A stretch of 26,444 nt of DNA from a virus (IMGVR_UViG_3300010883_000368:1-26444); one strand, 5' to 3'; shown: positions 1-13,771, counted from the stretch's first letter. Notes: a model not told the origin generated them from the letters alone. A program made the numbers and translations.

Positions 1-963
1 ATGAGCTCTAGCTGGTCCCTGTTTGATACTCACCAACGAAGAAATACTCTTATCATGCCTTGCGATGATGGTAACTTCGTAAGAACATACGGTATATATT
101 CTGGTTCTCATTTAACCGGGTCTATTGTTAAATCATCTAGGCCAGATCTGCTGGATTTAAACAATTTAGGCGACTTTACGTCAAACTATGACTCTAAGTT
201 GTGTTTAGTTGATGAGGCATGGACCTATACTAACACAAACCTGGAAGCAGAAAGTCCAAAATTGAGTAGTACCGATAGAAGAGTGTCCTCCGCTCAGACA
301 TCCCAGTCTTCGTCAATGCCAGCCCCGAGATTTTTTAATCCTAACGATTACGGATTGATTGGTTCGTCAGAGACTGCTTCTAATTTAATATCTATTTTTT
401 CCATTCCTACTTTATTCTATGGAAACAGACTTCGGCCAAACAGTATCAAGATGAAGTCACATCTATACAAGGGCGGCGGAGCAATTACGGGTACAGGGTT
501 AGACAAAAGGTTTGCCCAGGGTTCCGATCAGCGTATGGAAGTTAACTTATGTGATGATGGATATGGGAATATTATCAGATGCGATACAAGCGGATCTGTG
601 GCTACCGGTAATTCGGTTGGGACAGTATATTATGAAGACGGCGTAATCGCCCTTAAGTCCCCTCATTTGTTTTCTTTTGGGCAGCACAACTATACATTAG
701 ACTTTGAGGGAGAACAAAACACCCACATACTGGAACTATTGGTTCCTGTTGGTAGAAATTTATTTAACTCATCCAGTAATCCAAATTACAATGCTTACAA
801 ACCAGTTGCCGACGCAAATGAAGAAGCGGAATCCTTTATTTATCTTTCAACATTAAATTTTCATGATAGTAATATTAACGTTGTCGGCAAAGCAAGATTC
901 GCTCAGCCGATTATAAAAAGAATTAACGACAGATACATGATTAGGGTTAAATTTGACTTCTAG
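1..963 (+). CDS. Virion structural protein, probably C-terminal part of a tail/baseplate protein (5' end may lie outside window)
   Basis: The frame is open from the first base, so the ATG at 1 may be an internal methionine and the gene may extend further left. The visible 320 residues have no signal peptide or membrane segment and are rich in Ser, Asn, Gly and aromatics. The region around residues 145-260 (a Gly-rich KGGGAITGTG stretch, then GTVYYEDGVIAL) and the ending (FAQPIIKRINDRYMIRVKFDF region, residues 300-320) resemble the C-termini of large tail or baseplate proteins of T4-like marine phages, as I remember them. No enzymatic motif is visible. It overlaps the next gene by 11 bases, so it is probably the last gene of a structural operon. 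The exact virion role cannot be assigned. Confidence 0.55.
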   Translation: MSSSWSLFDTHQRRNTLIMPCDDGNFVRTYGIYSGSHLTGSIVKSSRPDLLDLNNLGDFTSNYDSKLCLVDEAWTYTNTNLEAESPKLSSTDRRVSSAQTSQSSSMPAPRFFNPNDYGLIGSSETASNLISIFSIPTLFYGNRLRPNSIKMKSHLYKGGGAITGTGLDKRFAQGSDQRMEVNLCDDGYGNIIRCDTSGSVATGNSVGTVYYEDGVIALKSPHLFSFGQHNYTLDFEGEQNTHILELLVPVGRNLFNSSSNPNYNAYKPVADANEEAESFIYLSTLNFHDSNINVVGKARFAQPIIKRINDRYMIRVKFDF

Positions 964-1519
964 ATATATTTTAGGGCTTGACGTCTCGACAAGGATTATT
1001 GGTTATACGCTGCTAGATGCAGAAACTGGTGCCCATGTTTTATCAAACGCTGTTACAATGAATCAAAAGGCAAGCTTTGTTTCAAGGGGATCCCATTTTC
1101 ATGATACTCTTGAAGATCTTAACTCGGGATATGACATTTCATCAATCTGGATCGAAGAGCCTTTCATGATGTTTTCTAAAGGTGGATCAAGCGCGCAAAC
1201 CATGAGCCGCCTGTCATCCTTTAACGGCTCAATCCAGTACATGTGTTATATGACGTTTGGTCTTGAACCAAACATGATTAACTCAAACCACGCAAGAAAA
1301 ACCTTGGGCATAAAAATTCAAAGAGAAAAGCTCTGCGGCATTAGCACAAAAGAACAGATTCTTTCCTGGGTTAAAGATAAACTACCTGATTTCGACTGGC
1401 CTACTAAGATGCTTAAGTCCGGACCCAGAAAAGGCTTAAAAATAGAAGGGCCTTCGTGTTATGATATAGCTGATTCTTTTGTTGTTGCAAAATCTGGTTT
1501 TGTAAAATTGACTGTATAG
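953..1519 (+). CDS. ruvC: RuvC-like Holliday junction resolvase
   Basis: This is a 188-residue RNase H-fold nuclease expected to cut four-way junctions and branched replicative DNA before packaging, the job of endonuclease VII (gp49) in T4. The RuvC catalytic acids are in place: D10 in LGLDVST, E68/E69 in IWIEEP, and D171 and D174 in YDIADSF. This matches the D-E-D-D set of bacterial RuvC. Residues 112-120 (NHARKTLGI) match the substrate-side segment of phage RuvC-like proteins. The start is TTG at 953, since the next in-frame Met is residue 36, after motif I. An AGGG lies 6 bases upstream. The gene overlaps the preceding one by 11 bases and is followed by the primase after 14 bases. Confidence 0.88.
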   Translation: MTSRYILGLDVSTRIIGYTLLDAETGAHVLSNAVTMNQKASFVSRGSHFHDTLEDLNSGYDISSIWIEEPFMMFSKGGSSAQTMSRLSSFNGSIQYMCYMTFGLEPNMINSNHARKTLGIKIQREKLCGISTKEQILSWVKDKLPDFDWPTKMLKSGPRKGLKIEGPSCYDIADSFVVAKSGFVKLTV

Positions 1520-1533
1520 TGATATAATCATGT

Positions 1534-2475
1534 ATGCGTTCAGCAAATAACAAAACGAGTTTCCTTTCAAGGATATTCTCAGATGTAAGACTATCTAGCG
1601 ATACATCCGAGATCTCGGTGCAGTGTCCTTTTTGTGGAAAGGCCGGCAAAAGTAAAATGTGCATCGTCATTGAAACTGATGTATACCACTGTTGGGTTTG
1701 TGATCAAAAGGGCCGCGGCCTAGGTCGCCTTATAAAAAAAATAGCTCCACAGAAGCTGCAAGAGTATAACGAGCGGTATAAATCGATAAAGGGACCGAGG
1801 GAAACCGCTGAAGAAGCCATCCCAGATGTCACTCTTCCCGAAGATTTTGTTTTATTAGCCGCTAACAAACGATTGGATCCGGATGCCCGTCAAATTTTAA
1901 AATACGCTTATGACCGCGGCTTTACGAAAGAAACTCTTTGGAAATTCAGGGTAGGTTTTTCAAAAACTAACCAATGGCGCCGCCGGCTTATGCTTCCTTC
2001 GTTTGACGAAGACGGTGCTCTTAATTTCATCACCGGTCGAGCTATCGATAAGAATAACAGCTTTAGATATAAGAATGAATCTGCTCCTAAAAACACAGTA
2101 ATATATAACGAGATGGATATCGATTTTTCCGAAGCTTTGGTCTTGGTCGAAGGTCCGCTAGATTTAATTAAAGTCCCACACAATTCGACTTGCTTACTAG
2201 GGTCAAGTCTAAGCTCGGAATCCAAGTTATTCCATAGAATTGCAAAAAATAGGACCCCCGTTATTCTTTTACTAGACCCGGATGTCAAGAAAAAAGTCTT
2301 CCGCATTGCCGATTTGCTGTCTAAGTTTTCCATAGACGTAAAGGTTAACTTTCCACCTGAAAACAAGGATATAAATGACCTTAATGAATCAGAAGTTGAA
2401 CATTTGATAAAAACATCACAACAATATACATATTCATACAAAATGAAAATTAAATTAGGAGCTATAAAAATATGA
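1534..2475 (+). CDS. DNA primase, DnaG/T4 gp61-type (zinc finger + TOPRIM)
   Basis: The 313-residue protein should make RNA primers for lagging-strand synthesis. An N-terminal zinc-binding domain has C31-x2-C34 and C53-x2-C56. A DnaG-like core follows (residues 125-175, including the RRLMLPSFDEDG segment and TGRAID), then a TOPRIM fold with the acidic motif VEGPLD (E206, D210) and the DxD motif LLDPD (D248, D250). There is no helicase domain, so a separate gp41-type helicase must be encoded elsewhere. The length is close to T4 gp61 (about 340 residues). The ATG at 1534 has only a weak SD. Its stop overlaps the next start in an ATGA arrangement, which suggests translational coupling to the recombination nuclease. 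Confidence 0.87.
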   Translation: MRSANNKTSFLSRIFSDVRLSSDTSEISVQCPFCGKAGKSKMCIVIETDVYHCWVCDQKGRGLGRLIKKIAPQKLQEYNERYKSIKGPRETAEEAIPDVTLPEDFVLLAANKRLDPDARQILKYAYDRGFTKETLWKFRVGFSKTNQWRRRLMLPSFDEDGALNFITGRAIDKNNSFRYKNESAPKNTVIYNEMDIDFSEALVLVEGPLDLIKVPHNSTCLLGSSLSSESKLFHRIAKNRTPVILLLDPDVKKKVFRIADLLSKFSIDVKVNFPPENKDINDLNESEVEHLIKTSQQYTYSYKMKIKLGAIKI

Positions 2476-5400
2476 CGATTAAAATAGCGCATATTGCTGA
2501 TATTCACTGGAGAGGCTTGTCTCGACATGAAGAATATAGAAAGACATTCGAGATATTTTTCAAGAAGTGCCGAAAACTAAAGCCGGACTACATTTATATC
2601 GGTGGTGATATAGTACACTCCAAAACGCAGAACATTAGTCCTGAGTTGATTTCGCATCTTTCATGGTGGTTTACTGAGATGGCCAAGATCGCGAAAGTCG
2701 TTGTCATTCTTGGGAACCATGATGGTTTAATGTTAAACACTGATCGGATGGATACGGTTTCTCCAATTATCGAAGCGTTAAACAACGATAATATCTGTTT
2801 CTTTAAGGATTCGGGTGTTCATCAATTTGCAGATCACCCTGGCTTTAATTGGTGTGTCCTAAGCTGTTTTGACACCCAGAATTGGAAAAAAGCAAGGCCT
2901 AAAAAGGGTGATGTTAACGTTGCACTTTATCATGGTGCTATTTGGGGATCTCACACCGACCTGGATTTCATGCTGGATGGTGATGATAGCGTCGATATTT
3001 TTAAGGGCTTTGATTTTGCAATGCTGGGCGATATTCATAAGCGCCAAGCTATGGATAAAGAAAAAAGGATTTGGTATTCAGGTTCCACAATCCCTCAGAA
3101 CTTTTCAGAAACCCAGCAAAAGGGTTTTCTATTCTGGACTATTAAGGATAAAGATAATTTCGACGTAAAATTCCATCCTATCAAGCATGTACATCCTTAT
3201 GTAACTCTAGATTGGGATAATGATCTAGATGCACTAGTCAAAAGCGCTTCAAGTCTTAACGAAGGATCTAGAGTAAGAATTAGAGCTAACGAACGACTTC
3301 CTTACGCTTTAGCTAGAAAAATATCTAAGAAAATACGAACAGACTGCAAAGCGTCAGATGTTGTGTTCAAGTATGACACTGCAAACAAAGTAATGCCAGC
3401 TTCGGAAGAAGTAAACGAAATTGCCAAGTCTGGTACTCTGGATTCTAGAACCATTAAGAAGCTTTTAAGGACTTATAACGGTGGAGAAGAAAGACGCGAA
3501 GAGTTTTGGACAGAAATTGATAACCAAGTAGACACTGCACTCAATAACAGTTTAAAGACGTTCCAGCACGGCAATCGATGGTCTATCAAAAAAATGGAAT
3601 TTGATAATACGTTTGGCTATGGAAAAGATAACGTAATCGACTTTACTAAATTAAACGGTATTGTCGGGCTCTTTGGAAGAAATCGAGCCGGTAAGTCTAG
3701 CATTCCTGGAACACTAACATACGGTCTTTATAATAAGAATGATAGGGGCATTGTATCTAATTTACACGTAGTAAATGCTCGAGCTGATTATTGCCAAGCC
3801 GCTATAACATTTTCTGTAAATGACCAACTTTATCGATCAGAGAGACAGTCCGTAAAGTGCACCTCTAGAGGTACAGAAACATGCATGACTCATCTTAATC
3901 TATACGAGGTTGATGAGGATTATTCAATCGTCAAAGATATGTCTGGTGAGCAACGTCGCGAGACCGAAAAGGAGCTGACGCGATTGATTGGCACTAGCGA
4001 TGATTTTCTTTTAACTTCTTTTGCATCACAGGGAGGAATGAATAGTTTTATAAACTTAGGAGGATCCGAAAGACGTAAGACTATTTGCAGATTCCTGGGT
4101 CTAGACGTGTTTTCTGAGTTAAATAAGATATTTAGGGATGCTAGTTTAGAAACAAAAGCCAAAATGAAGACCTTCAAAGGTAAGGACTATGAGAAAGAAA
4201 GAAAGGAAGTCCTGGACACTCTAAAAGATCTAAGGGCACAGAGGGACGAATGTAAGGATGAAGTTATAGTAATAACTGCGAATCTTGAATCCCAGCTCTC
4301 TGAATTGCAGACGTACAAATTACAAATCAATGCTGACGTTGGCGACATTGATGTTATAGAGTCACATATAAATGACCTTAAAGACAAGATCTCTTCTTTG
4401 ACTTTAACCATCACAGACTCAAACGCAAAAATCCAGAAAGCGAAAAAAGTTATTTCTGGAGCAGAAGTAGCCTTAGATCAGAGCGAGTACGAGAGGCTAG
4501 CACTAGATGTTAAAGCTACGGAAGAATTGCTTGATAAGAAGACCGCGATCGAATTAAAGATAAAGGAGTCTAAGACAAGGCTCAAGAATTGTAACAAAAA
4601 GATAAAATTGCTAGGATCACACGAATACGATCCGGAATGCGAATTCTGCTGTAATAATGAATTCGTTAAAGAAGCTCATGAGGCACAGATGAGATTACCG
4701 GATATTGAGGCAGAATTATCCGCGATGAATGATACTCTCAGTAATGTAACACGGGGTATAGACAGCGGTAAGTATAATTTAGCAAAAAATTATGTTGATA
4801 ACTTTGATAAAAGAAAAACAAAGGTTACGGAGCTCAAGCTAAAGTTATCCAAACTTGAGCTTGCAAGAGAAAAGTACTCATCCGAGCTAACTTCAGCGGA
4901 AAATAATTTAGTAGAACTCGAGGCTAATTTGGTGTTAGCCAAAAAAGCATCTGATCCGGAATTGGTCATACAGATTACAACTCTAGAAGAAAAAATTAAT
5001 AATCTAAGGATAGAAAAGTCCTCGAAGCAAGCATCACTTTCTAAGTTAGCTACAAAGATTGGCGTGCATCAAGAAAAATTAAAGAATATTGATGATGGGC
5101 AAAAATCCTATAACAAGATTCTAATAGACTGGTCCGTTTATGAATTCCTTTTGGTTGCAACTAGCTGGCGCGGCATACCGGCTGCAATCCTACAATCGAT
5201 GGTACCAGCTATAAATGAAGAATTGGCTTCGATCCTTCAAGAGTCCGTGGGTTTTACCATAGAGCTTGAAATAGACGATTCTAAGACTGAGATGTACATT
5301 AACTATGGTGACAGCCGCCGACCTATTGAGTGCGGCTCTGGTATGGAAAAAATGGTTTCCAGTTTAGCTCTCCGAGTTGCCCTAACCAATATTAGTTCAC

Positions 5401-5609
5401 TTAGCAAGTCTGACATGCTCATTATTGATGAAGGATTCGGCTCTCTGGACGTTGCGAATGTAGAAGCTGTAACACAGCTTTTGCAAAAATTAAGAACCTG
5501 GTACAGGCTAATTATACTGATTAGCCACGTCGACCTTGTTAAAGAATCTGTCGATGATATTATTGAAATTACAAGCTGTGATAAAAATGCTAAGGTTGTT
5601 TATGGATGA
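2472..5609 (+). CDS. Single-chain Mre11-Rad50 (SbcD-SbcC; T4 gp47-gp46) recombination nuclease fusion
   Basis: This 1045-residue protein joins two subunits that are separate in T4 and in bacteria. The N-terminal Mre11/SbcD phosphodiesterase carries all its metal motifs: D10-x-H12, GGD46, GNH83D84, H154 and GDIH189, followed by YSGST (202-206). From about residue 365 a Rad50/SbcC ATPase begins: Walker A GRNRAGKSS (402-410), Q520, a long coiled coil (about 555-890) with a zinc-hook CxxC at C723/C726, a signature-like GSGMEK (955-960), Walker B LIIDE (D986, E987), D-loop SLD and switch His H1019. T4 gp47 plus gp46 total about 900 residues. The reading frame is continuous with no frameshift. It overlaps the primase stop by 4 bases. 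Expected role: end resection and recombination-dependent replication. Confidence 0.93.
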   Translation: MTIKIAHIADIHWRGLSRHEEYRKTFEIFFKKCRKLKPDYIYIGGDIVHSKTQNISPELISHLSWWFTEMAKIAKVVVILGNHDGLMLNTDRMDTVSPIIEALNNDNICFFKDSGVHQFADHPGFNWCVLSCFDTQNWKKARPKKGDVNVALYHGAIWGSHTDLDFMLDGDDSVDIFKGFDFAMLGDIHKRQAMDKEKRIWYSGSTIPQNFSETQQKGFLFWTIKDKDNFDVKFHPIKHVHPYVTLDWDNDLDALVKSASSLNEGSRVRIRANERLPYALARKISKKIRTDCKASDVVFKYDTANKVMPASEEVNEIAKSGTLDSRTIKKLLRTYNGGEERREEFWTEIDNQVDTALNNSLKTFQHGNRWSIKKMEFDNTFGYGKDNVIDFTKLNGIVGLFGRNRAGKSSIPGTLTYGLYNKNDRGIVSNLHVVNARADYCQAAITFSVNDQLYRSERQSVKCTSRGTETCMTHLNLYEVDEDYSIVKDMSGEQRRETEKELTRLIGTSDDFLLTSFASQGGMNSFINLGGSERRKTICRFLGLDVFSELNKIFRDASLETKAKMKTFKGKDYEKERKEVLDTLKDLRAQRDECKDEVIVITANLESQLSELQTYKLQINADVGDIDVIESHINDLKDKISSLTLTITDSNAKIQKAKKVISGAEVALDQSEYERLALDVKATEELLDKKTAIELKIKESKTRLKNCNKKIKLLGSHEYDPECEFCCNNEFVKEAHEAQMRLPDIEAELSAMNDTLSNVTRGIDSGKYNLAKNYVDNFDKRKTKVTELKLKLSKLELAREKYSSELTSAENNLVELEANLVLAKKASDPELVIQITTLEEKINNLRIEKSSKQASLSKLATKIGVHQEKLKNIDDGQKSYNKILIDWSVYEFLLVATSWRGIPAAILQSMVPAINEELASILQESVGFTIELEIDDSKTEMYINYGDSRRPIECGSGMEKMVSSLALRVALTNISSLSKSDMLIIDEGFGSLDVANVEAVTQLLQKLRTWYRLIILISHVDLVKESVDDIIEITSCDKNAKVVYG

Positions 5610-5850
5610 TAAACCGGAAATATTGGAAAGCAATGGAGTACTTATTGTTATAGATGCCAGTTATTCTTCTGCCGATTTTGATTGTTCTGTTTGCGGATTA
5701 ATTATAAATGGCTTAGAAGATGTAACATCTGTTAATAATTATGGATGTTGTTCAGATTGTGAAGAATACTATTACTGGCCTAACAAAAAACAATGGAAAT
5801 TAGGCTGGCGCCCAAAAAAACAAGACGTTCAGCAAAAATTGAATAATTAA
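5602..5850 (+). CDS. Small zinc-ribbon protein, unknown function
   Basis: The protein has 82 residues. Two cysteine pairs, C28-x2-C31 and C50-x2-C53 (C49 is an extra), make a four-cysteine zinc ribbon. An aromatic/basic tail follows (YYYWPNKKQWKLGW region) that could bind nucleic acid. The start chosen is ATG 5602, with AAGG 6 bases upstream; a longer in-frame extension to 5536 only copies the end of the preceding gene in another frame. It overlaps the Mre11-Rad50 fusion by 8 bases, so it is probably co-translated with it. I do not recognise a named family. A DNA- or RNA-binding accessory factor is a guess from the composition. Confidence 0.72.
   Translation: MDDKPEILESNGVLIVIDASYSSADFDCSVCGLIINGLEDVTSVNNYGCCSDCEEYYYWPNKKQWKLGWRPKKQDVQQKLNN
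5843..5850 (+). promoter_or_regulatory. Weak copy of the putative late-promoter motif (ATAATTAA)
   Basis: ATAATTAA lies 20 bases upstream of ATG 5871, the same spacing as the clear ATACTTAT copies elsewhere. It overlaps the stop codon of an Asn-Asn-stop ending, so it may simply reflect AT-rich coding. Support is weak. Confidence 0.25.
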
Positions 5851-5870: not shown

Positions 5871-6263
5871 ATGGAAACGACCCCCGCACAATATCTTAGT
5901 TTTGATGAAATCAATACACTCGGAAATATCCTAAATCACACGTTTGGAAAAAGCTCAACAAAAGACAAGGGATATAGCATTACTACCTCTATACAGGGAA
6001 GCATGCTTACTTTAAAATACGCAACAGTGGTACATTTTAATAGTACCGACGGCCTAGCGGTTCAGAAAAAAGAGCATGAGAGGCAGTCGAACGAAATGCT
6101 TCAAGAGAAAATTAAAGAAGTAAAGGCCGACTTTAAGGAACAAGCCGGTAGAGCATTAAAGGTTAGTGAGAAAGGAAGTAGTGACGATGTTGAATTAATA
6201 TCATCACAAAGTGAAAGAAAAATTGCATATTATAGACGAGCGATAATTTTTGAGATTAGCTGA
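5871..6263 (+). CDS. Unrecognised protein in the small-terminase (gp16) position
   Basis: This 130-residue protein starts at ATG 5871 with GGAG 6 bases upstream. Its stop shares one base with the start of the large terminase (TGATG). It appears to have a short helical start, a beta-rich stretch (residues 37-60), a charged helix likely to form a coiled coil (about 66-95) and a C-terminal strand rich in basic and aromatic residues. In T4 and most tailed phages the small terminase subunit sits directly before the large one and is a coiled-coil oligomer, so TerS is a reasonable hypothesis from position and the helix. I see no helix-turn-helix and no sequence signature that proves it. Confidence 0.7.
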   Translation: METTPAQYLSFDEINTLGNILNHTFGKSSTKDKGYSITTSIQGSMLTLKYATVVHFNSTDGLAVQKKEHERQSNEMLQEKIKEVKADFKEQAGRALKVSEKGSSDDVELISSQSERKIAYYRRAIIFEIS

Positions 6264-7852
6264 TGGCTACTAAACAAAAGCAAAGGCAAATAAAGGAAAT
6301 AGTCCGATGCGGCAAGGAGCCTGAGTATTTTTTCAACAAATACATAAAGATCCAGCATCCTACTAGGGGTGCAATACCTTTCAAGACTTACGATTTCCAA
6401 GACCAGTGCGTTAATGCATTCCGCGACAATCGCTTTAACATAGTATTAAAAAGCCGGCAGCTTGGTTTATCCACAATTTCAGCCGCGTACGCAACTTGGC
6501 TAGCTATATTTTACAAAGATAAAAACATATTGGTTATTGCAACCAAGCTTTCAGTTGCACAAAACTTTATTAGGAAAGTTAAATTTTGTCTTCAATCAAT
6601 GCCAAAATGGCTACTACTTCCAGAAATAATTAATAATAACAAGCAGGCTTTAGAATTTTCCAATGGTTCAACCATCAAGGCGATACCTACATCAGAAGAT
6701 GCAGGTCGTTCAGAAGCTTTGACTCTATTGATCGTTGATGAAGCAGCTTTTGTTAGAAATTTTGACACTATTTGGACCGGCCTATATCCGACCCTATCCA
6801 CCGGTGGTCAAGCTATTGTATTATCGACCCCTAATGGAGTAGGCGGGCAATATTATGATTTGTGGCGCCAGGCTGTTTCCGGCGAAAATATATTCAACCC
6901 GATAAAACTTGATTGGGAAGTCCATCCAGATCGTGGTGAAAAATGGTTTAAGGAAGAGACTAGAAATATGTCTCCTAAGCAAATTGCCCAAGAGCTTATG
7001 TGCGACTTCGCTGCCTCTGGAGAAACATTCCTACAGTCGGAAGATATAGACCACTACAGGACCATGGTTAGAGACCCTATCGAACGCTGGGGCCCCGATA
7101 TGAATGTTTGGACTTGGGGTTATCCTTTATCAGAGAAAAAATACATAATTTCTGCTGATGTATCTCGCGGTGATGCAGCTGATTATTCAACATTCCACAT
7201 AATCGATACAGAAATGTCCGAAGTTGTTGCTGAATATAGGGGAAAACTCCCACCCGATAAATTTGCACAGCTATTAGCGGAAGCTGGTAGAAGATATAAT
7301 CAAGCAACTATCTGCCCGGAGAGTAATTCTTTCGGATATGCTGTGATAATGAAGCTTAGGGATCTTGAATATAAAAATATATACTTTGAAAACGAAAAAG
7401 ACTATTTCTCTTTTCTGTACGGCGGCGGAGATATTTCAAAAGCTGGCTTTAGTACCCAGACTAAATCAAGGAACCAAATTTTAACTAAGCTTGAAGAAGT
7501 ACTAAGGACTAAAAAAGTGCGAAGCTATTCTTCTAGATTTTATGAAGAAATCAAGACTTTCGTTTGGCAAGGCCAAAAGGCTCAGGCTAGAAAAGGCGCT
7601 AACGATGACTTGATTATGTCTATGGCCATCGGAATTTGGCTATATGATACTAGCCCACAATATAACAAACAATCTACGGACCTAAACGCGGCTATGTTGT
7701 CTGGTTTTGCTGTTAACAGCACAGATATTAGTGATACAGTATTAAAAGACCCTGCAATTTCTACCGATGGTAGTATTTATACAAATGACGTCCGCAAAAG
7801 CTGGGATTCTAAAAATAATCCTTTAGGCAATCTAGATTGGCTTCTTAAATAG
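6263..7852 (+). CDS. terL: Terminase large subunit, T4 gp17-type DNA packaging motor
   Basis: The 529-residue packaging ATPase-nuclease pumps DNA into the prohead through the portal and cuts the concatemer. The ATPase domain has a P-loop KSRQLGLST (63-71), Walker B LLIVDEAA (D159, E160) and coupling motif LSTP (187-190). The RNase H-like nuclease has D299 in ISADVSRGD, E353 in CPESN, and D448/D449 in GANDD. GFSTQTKSR (395-403) is a typical gp17 nuclease-domain segment. The P-loop has Leu where classical Walker A has Lys; the Lys sits at the front (K63), as in many phage terminases. It is shorter than T4 gp17 (about 610 residues), mostly at the N-terminus. The portal gene follows after 15 bases. 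Confidence 0.96.
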   Translation: MATKQKQRQIKEIVRCGKEPEYFFNKYIKIQHPTRGAIPFKTYDFQDQCVNAFRDNRFNIVLKSRQLGLSTISAAYATWLAIFYKDKNILVIATKLSVAQNFIRKVKFCLQSMPKWLLLPEIINNNKQALEFSNGSTIKAIPTSEDAGRSEALTLLIVDEAAFVRNFDTIWTGLYPTLSTGGQAIVLSTPNGVGGQYYDLWRQAVSGENIFNPIKLDWEVHPDRGEKWFKEETRNMSPKQIAQELMCDFAASGETFLQSEDIDHYRTMVRDPIERWGPDMNVWTWGYPLSEKKYIISADVSRGDAADYSTFHIIDTEMSEVVAEYRGKLPPDKFAQLLAEAGRRYNQATICPESNSFGYAVIMKLRDLEYKNIYFENEKDYFSFLYGGGDISKAGFSTQTKSRNQILTKLEEVLRTKKVRSYSSRFYEEIKTFVWQGQKAQARKGANDDLIMSMAIGIWLYDTSPQYNKQSTDLNAAMLSGFAVNSTDISDTVLKDPAISTDGSIYTNDVRKSWDSKNNPLGNLDWLLK

Positions 7853-12998: not shown

Positions 12999-13559
12999 AT
13001 GTCTTCATCCCTTACGGGCAACAATAATTTTCCGAAAGCCCATGGCGATTCGAGAAATGACTTAGGTTATGGTAGGCTTTCCCCAAAGTATCACGTTGAT
13101 CGTGGTCATGGGGATCCTACCTTTCCTTATGTTGAGCCTCCAACGGATTTAGGGGATGAAGATCTTCTCGATGTCGAGGATGAAGATATAGCAGCTGTCC
13201 ATGCAAAAACAATCGAGCCAAGGGATTATGATCCTTTGCCTCACCATGATCCATTCTCTTTCGTCAGTGGTAATACCCGATTAGGCGAAACTAGTGGCAG
13301 AAGTATTTCCCCTATTCCCAACCTCTATAAAGGTAGGGAAACATCTGGCGGTGGTACCTCTAGCGGGGGTCACACTGGACCAACATCAGGGTTTGCTTCG
13401 AAGTCGCGACCCACTGGTGATAGATATGGCTATAGTACAATGTACGGTGAAGATGAGGCAGGTGACGAACCGGCCTATTCATTAGAAGACATAGCTGAAA
13501 AACAGATAGAAGAATTAAAACGATATATCAGAATGGTACTACTGGAGTATGCCTCGTGA
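12999..13559 (+). CDS. Disordered acidic/Gly-rich head-cluster protein with C-terminal helix, function unknown
   Basis: The protein has 186 residues. Most is low-complexity: His/Asp/Pro-rich (20-85) and Gly/Ser/Thr-rich (105-145). The C-terminus is a single amphipathic helix (LEDIAEKQIEELKRYIRMVLLE, about 162-183), like those at the N-termini of two neighbours. Such a lone terminal helix is a likely docking peptide for capsid or scaffold. AGGGG lies 8 bases before ATG 12999. Its stop overlaps the GTG start of the bS21-like gene (GTGA), which suggests coupled translation. Confidence 0.72.
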   Translation: MSSSLTGNNNFPKAHGDSRNDLGYGRLSPKYHVDRGHGDPTFPYVEPPTDLGDEDLLDVEDEDIAAVHAKTIEPRDYDPLPHHDPFSFVSGNTRLGETSGRSISPIPNLYKGRETSGGGTSSGGHTGPTSGFASKSRPTGDRYGYSTMYGEDEAGDEPAYSLEDIAEKQIEELKRYIRMVLLEYAS

Positions 13560-13771
13560 AAAATAAATGCAACTTTTCTGTAAAAGCAAAGCCTAGACAA
13601 AAAGGTTCTGTCGAAGAGCAGAATGCTAAGCTAATAAGGATATTCTTTAAGAAATTTAAGAAGTCTGGGATCATCCAAGATCTTAGGAAAAAAGAGTATC
13701 CGATTACTAAAGGCATGAAAAAGAGACAGAAAAAACATCTTGGCAAACGCCGGGCACAAAAAAAAGAATAA
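13556..13771 (+). CDS. rpsU: Ribosomal protein bS21 homologue
   Basis: The protein has 71 residues, the same length as E. coli bS21. It aligns along the core: KKFKKSGIIQDLRKKEY matches bacterial [21 protein letters not shown] in spacing and character, and the Lys/Arg-rich tail (MKKRQKKHLGKRRAQKK) matches KRAKASAVKRHAKK. bS21 binds the 30S platform near the 16S 3' end and helps initiation. Virus-encoded bS21 is known from pelagiphages and large phages and is thought to enter host ribosomes. The start is GTG 13556, with GGAG 8 bases upstream (13544-13547); the nearby ATG at 13567 is out of frame. The position inside a head-assembly operon is unusual. A basic virion protein that merely resembles bS21 is the alternative. 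Confidence 0.72.
   Translation: MKNKCNFSVKAKPRQKGSVEEQNAKLIRIFFKKFKKSGIIQDLRKKEYPITKGMKKRQKKHLGKRRAQKKE

Follow-up and report, generated by a model that had tools for sequence, protein, structure and literature searches.

A single-chain Mre11-Rad50 protein, probably of the R555 type, in T4-like marine phages

Mre11/Rad50 is a universal DNA-break-processing enzyme. Forms in which its two subunits are joined in one chain have been described: Yoshida, Claverie and Ogata (2011) reported the Mimivirus protein R555 together with twelve other fusions of Mre11 to Rad50 or of SbcD to SbcC, one of them in a phage (PMC3175470). The carriers were Mimivirus, a Bacillus phage (0305phi8-36, NC_009760), plasmids and eukaryotes, and it was proposed that a retained helix-loop-helix and a nine-to-twelve-residue connection keep the normal interface between the subunits (PMC3175470). 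In scaffolds from Global Ocean Sampling the same authors analysed 249 homologues of R555, many of them accompanied by phage primase and endonuclease genes, and suggested a phage origin of these scaffolds as possible (PMC3175470). Our literature search gave no paper in which one of these fusions was tested biochemically, and the later papers among its results appear only to cite the 2011 work.

The window analysed here, a virus contig of 26,444 bases from a marine phage, carries a gene of this type. The frame at 2472-5609 has no internal stops; its ATG start overlaps, by 4 nt, the stop of the primase gene before it, and its product unites the whole Mre11/SbcD nuclease and the whole Rad50/SbcC ATPase in one chain. 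A Pfam search of the protein identified Metallophos at residues 3-189 (E 5e-11), AAA_23 at residues 378-620 (E 9e-9) and, weakly and under the cut-off, SbcC_Walker_B at residues 948-1005 (E 0.0015), and PHROG identified the SbcC-like phrog_77 at residues 328-1042 (E 1e-49). The first-pass annotation had placed Mre11 and Rad50 in a single 1045-codon frame, and the open reading frame, the Pfam and PHROG matches and the fold matches all bear this out. The novelty that it implied is another matter, viral Mre11/Rad50 fusions, including those of phage and of ocean metagenome scaffolds, having been published in 2011 (PMC3175470). Because the fusion type was described then, the window fusion is a good example of it and no discovery; what is new here is that the fusion is fixed in a lineage with RecA, that its Rad50 signature is SGME, and that fused proteins stand apart from split ones in a small phage tree. 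The ocean scaffolds probably derive from genomes of the kind seen in the window. The gene and its parts are as follows.

2472-5609, plus strand: single-chain Mre11-Rad50 (SbcD-SbcC) gene, 1045 codons (open reading frame call and profile matches)
2472-3206, plus strand: Mre11 phosphoesterase domain, residues 1-245 (Pfam, invariant ligands, fold match)
3207-3401, plus strand: Mre11 capping domain, residues about 246-310 (the model of residues 1-372 aligns to SbcD/Mre11 chains through 300-304)
3405-3560, plus strand: Mre11 helix-loop-helix (Rad50-binding), residues 312-363 (model helices and structure alignment)
3561-3575, plus strand: true tether, residues 364-368 (two models)
3576-4151, plus strand: Rad50 N-lobe, residues 369-560, with Walker A GRNRAGKS at 402-409
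4152-4607, plus strand: Rad50 ascending coiled coil, residues 561-712 (model secondary structure)
4608-4658, plus strand: zinc-hook-type apex, C723-E-F-C726(-C727)
4659-5159, plus strand: Rad50 descending coiled coil, residues 730-896 (whole-chain model)
5160-5606, plus strand: Rad50 C-lobe, residues 897-1045, with signature SGME 956-959, Walker B D986 E987, D-loop D993 and H-loop H1019

The closest described system is R555. It shares the order of an N-terminal Mre11 followed by a C-terminal Rad50 in one chain, the retained helix-loop-helix and, by its published description, GDxxH and an Asp in place of P. furiosus His206 (PMC3175470), and the ocean homologues of this type likewise adjoin phage primase genes. 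However, R555 comes from a giant virus that infects amoebae and has 1351 aa, its coiled coil being as long as in cellular proteins, whereas the window protein has 1045 aa and belongs to a T4-like phage lineage. T4 gp47/gp46 is also a phage Mre11/Rad50 pair proposed for end resection, with the gp47 gene upstream of gp46 in the direction of transcription, but it is encoded by two genes with 46.2 and 46.1 between them, and it has GDxxD, GHxH, the signature SEGE and a shorter coil (gp46 has 560 aa). Bacterial SbcD and SbcC have the same fold in both halves (Z 24-31 to SbcCD chains), but they are separate chains, and the window protein falls far under the SbcC/SbcD family cut-offs. The Mre11-Rad50 arrangement is found again in Tenacibaculum phage pT24 and in the huge-phage records LR756501 and LR756508, the first two having single frames with the SGME signature; all three proteins are nevertheless only 22-37% identical to the window protein, and the gene of LR756508 is interrupted by a 305-aa ORF. 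This ORF, at 4665-5582 of the locus L018 from the 484-kb huge phage, interrupts the gene just after the GDIH motif and has a TnsA-like nuclease match. A group I intron was considered for LR756508 and rejected, since Rfam gave no match even when its thresholds were relaxed from the gathering values; the interruption is possibly a homing-type insertion.

The genes around the fusion are as follows.

953-1519, plus strand: RuvC-like Holliday junction resolvase (phrog_159, E 1e-7; conserved neighbour)
1534-2475, plus strand: primase-like protein with zinc finger and Toprim (phrog_47, E 1e-46; synteny)
5602-5850, plus strand: small Cys-rich protein, its start overlapping the fusion stop (conserved neighbour)
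6263-7852, plus strand: T4-type terminase large subunit, downstream (Pfam Terminase_6N, E 2e-21; synteny)

Among the other proteins of the window are a portal, a protease, a major head protein and a tail sheath of T4 type. In the marine loci the recurrent order is RuvC, primase, fusion, small Cys-rich protein (ZnR), small ORF, terminase (TerL), portal and head protease, with variation in that genes are sometimes inserted between primase and fusion, or the Cys-rich protein is absent; the block from primase to terminase holds the fusion in nearly all of about 90 loci. Copy number was checked in the 11 relatives that have long records (115-273 kb); these are possibly incomplete, so that absence from them is not absolute. 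Each of the 11 has one full-length fused match, and this is its only MR gene. No second SbcC-type gene exceeded the AAA_23 cut-off in these relatives, the one extra match being weak and 23 positions long (G009), and a search with Metallophos (PF00149) for a separate Mre11 copy gave a single 224-aa phosphoesterase frame (G006) as its only extra. RecA is present in 10 of the 11 (E about 1e-64); it was seen in the records of the relatives, the window being a 26-kb fragment. As judged from these sequences, the fusion has become fixed throughout a lineage of T4-like marine phages in which RecA is encoded as well.

Some further features of these genomes are worth recording. The phage with the nearest terminase (42%) is Flavobacterium phage immuto (L105); AAA_23 finds nothing in its record, which has two large ORFs without Pfam match beside the terminase and carries two small phosphoesterase frames. 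At 13556-13771 the window has a small ORF that Pfam matches weakly to ribosomal protein S21 (E 4.5e-5, under the cut-off), and in the matching region of Microcystis phage Mel-JY01, between head protease and capsid gene, there is an annotated RpsU. Inteins enlarge the portal frames of three relatives (L049 13462-19116, L066 10129-15828 and L026 6792-9563), with one to four Intein_splicing stretches per frame and HNH matches in two. The contigs L102, L103 and L104 are binned in bacterial MAGs (Methylococcaceae, Halobacteriovorax and Gemmatimonadetes), which are possibly host hints or mis-binning.

T4 gp46/47 has a proposed role in resection (PMC3016280), and in recombination-dependent replication it provides 3' tails for UvsX. 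We consider it likely that the window gene encodes a single-chain Mre11-Rad50 nuclease of the R555 type, fixed in T4-like marine phages, which carries out ATP-gated end resection for recombination-dependent replication. By analogy with known complexes we infer that two chains would pair as an (MR)2 homodimer, giving the usual assembly of an Mre11 dimer with a Rad50 dimer. On binding ATP the Rad50 heads would close and cover the Mre11 site, which hydrolysis would open, so that DNA ends are cut, and the resected 3' tails would pass to the phage-encoded RecA for strand invasion and replication. The fusion would provide a fixed 1:1 stoichiometry and one-step synthesis, without a new interface. Host DNA degradation or counter-defence might be the main role instead of the processing of replication ends, T4 gp46/47 being annotated as also needed for host DNA degradation, but the neighbours here are a resolvase, a primase and a terminase, and the relatives carry RecA, which makes this unlikely.

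An alignment of the window protein with 44 relatives was used to examine the active sites. In the Mre11 half, D10, H12, D46, H49, N82, H83, H154, D187 and H189 are invariant in all 45 sequences, D10, H12, D46, N82, H154, D187 and H189 among them being metal-ligand positions. In the Rad50 half the same is true (45/45) of the Walker A GKS, Q520, S956-G957-M958-E959, D986-E987, D993 and H1019; Walker B reads LIIDE, and Q-loop, D-loop and H-loop are all present. Since these positions are invariant, the gene is under purifying selection as one active frame. The earlier claim of a full Rad50, with coiled coil, CxxC hook, signature and Walker B, proved correct in every element, with the signature in the variant form SGME rather than SxGE/SGGE, a form shared with the fused proteins of LR756501 and pT24 mentioned above. 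The hook is C-x2-C in the window protein, its closest relatives, the locus L010 and the Microcystis phage, and most relatives have the variant PCGDxFPxC. For the Mre11 half, the expectation that every metal motif would be found held as to their presence, but their form is that of the R555 variant: residues 45-49 are GDxxH, His49 replacing the third Asp of the canonical GDxxD, and residues 186-189 are GDIH, Asp187 replacing the first His of the canonical Mre11 GHxH. A motif comparison showed that T4 gp47 and a cyanophage protein keep the canonical motifs.

The Asp187 and SGME variants could change activity. With Asp in place of a canonical metal-ligand His, and GDxxH in place of GDxxD, it might even be supposed that the nuclease half is degenerate and that the chain serves chiefly to tether DNA in the manner of Rad50. 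However, the ligand positions, D187 included, do not vary in the 45 sequences, and GDxH is also found in a split phage protein (Vibrio D146), so that degeneracy seems unlikely. Asp is able in principle to bind metal, and for this reason nuclease activity would be expected from the variant site.

AlphaFold models were built on the alignment of the same 45 sequences. The whole-chain model (pLDDT 82.7) has a pTM of 0.49, and therefore leaves the placement of the two halves relative to each other unfixed; the model of residues 1-372 reaches pLDDT 87.0 and pTM 0.76. Residues 1-363 resemble Mre11/SbcD, the top match being the full-length Thermotoga chain 3tho_B (Z 25.7, 325 residues aligned, rmsd 9.5), where the large rmsd arises probably because the helix-loop-helix is placed differently relative to the core; residues 1-301 match E. 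coli SbcD 4m0v with Z 25.6 and rmsd 3.0. Residues 368-1045 resemble Rad50/SbcC, with a best Z for the heads of 30.8 (rmsd 3.8 over 355 residues, 7yzo_D). At the junction the model of residues 1-372 has helices at 312-319, 325-335 and 343-363, and the structure alignment takes in the helix-loop-helix, reaching residue 363 for 3tho_B (the T. maritima Mre11 of full length) and 362 for 6s6v_A (E. coli SbcD). What had been taken for a linker at about residues 340-365 is thus mostly the predicted helix 343-363 of the helix-loop-helix, and only about 364-368 is unstructured; the tether has 5-8 aa, a figure that varies with the model from which the end of the helix is read. The spacing from L331 to W370 is 40-43 residues in 45 of 45 sequences, implying that this region is a conserved structural element and no loose linker. 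In the models and the fold alignment both the capping region and the helix-loop-helix are retained between the two halves, and the retention of the latter argues for the usual Mre11/Rad50 interface being kept. The first-pass annotation had put forward that a fixed tether could change the control of the nuclease by ATP hydrolysis, which is a conjecture.

The fusion would be merely genetic if cleavage or internal initiation yielded separate Mre11 and Rad50. The only candidate for an internal start of a separate Rad50 is an in-frame ATG at codon 375, near the Rad50 start, but it has no ribosome-binding site, several relatives have no Met there, and it sits within the first Rad50 strand (369-378 in the whole-chain model); separate subunits are therefore very unlikely. 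It had been suggested that the phage would have no separate pool of Mre11, and with the fusion as the sole MR gene in the 11 long relatives there is indeed no sign of one.

Homologues were sought first in IMG/VR, giving 14 loci at 30-92% identity; a wider IMG/VR search found 576 or more related stretches, and the 80 best were taken further; a MAG search added three fusion-bearing contigs. One frame spans nearly the whole protein in 94 of the 105 loci examined, an open-frame count that has the best 80 of at least 576 stretches among its sources and takes in duplicates, the window itself and the record of Listeria phage LMTA-57. Six of the remaining 11 are contigs that end inside the gene (L003, L004, L013, L014, L077 and L104), and the other five are the split outgroups L020 and L021, the distant single-frame L016 and L019, with weak C-terminal alignment, and the interrupted LR756508 (L018). 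About 90 of the IMG/VR loci examined, from many samples, have a single-frame homologue (30-75% identity) with the junction intact, and the fusion was therefore not made by assembly. No stop or frameshift was seen at codons 330-370 in the relatives, and close relatives never have two genes.

The LMTA-57 record (L017) is a case apart. Near 4962, just ahead of the sbcD stop, its homopolymer is one A shorter than that of the two-gene phage LP-064, and translation in this frame would take in the intergenic region and the ribosome-binding site of sbcC, so the joined frame could be a sequencing error in the record and no conserved fusion. That the window fusion is likewise an artefact, two ordinary genes merged by a stop codon lost in assembly or sequencing, has a precedent in this 1009-aa frame but can be dismissed as having next to no probability, since independent contigs at 74-75% and at 37-45% identity carry the same in-frame junction, the spacing is conserved, and the window junction has no leftover ribosome-binding site and no intergenic stretch.

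To compare fused with split proteins, 12 of the former and 9 of the latter, all from phages, were placed in an unrooted maximum-likelihood tree, a small sample with no giant-virus or eukaryote sequence. The branch between the two groups has ultrafast bootstrap values of 95 for the Mre11 part, 96 for the Rad50 heads and 100 for both together. This separation is compatible with a single, old fusion event within the set of phages sampled, but several such events were inferred in 2011 (PMC3175470). The top viral fold matches are full-length proteins of the 'DNA repair exonuclease' type from Yasminevirus, Tupanvirus, Harvfovirus and Catovirus (E 2e-53 to 3e-46), and we infer that these are the giant-virus side of the R555 family. 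Among plasmid homologues only weak Rad50-type matches were found, and no fused gene. It is conceivable, and we put this forward tentatively, that a large marine lineage depends on its single-chain protein as an obligate nuclease, that this protein, with the Asp187 and SGME common to fused viral proteins, derives from one old fusion spread among phages and giant viruses, and that its ATP control is altered.

By the count given here, the fusion is the normal state in an abundant group of marine phages and no sporadic oddity. The compact one-chain phage protein would offer a fixed 1:1 complex for structural and single-molecule study of the ATP gating of Mre11, and the comparison gives a clearer view of how the viral fusions relate to the split proteins of phages.
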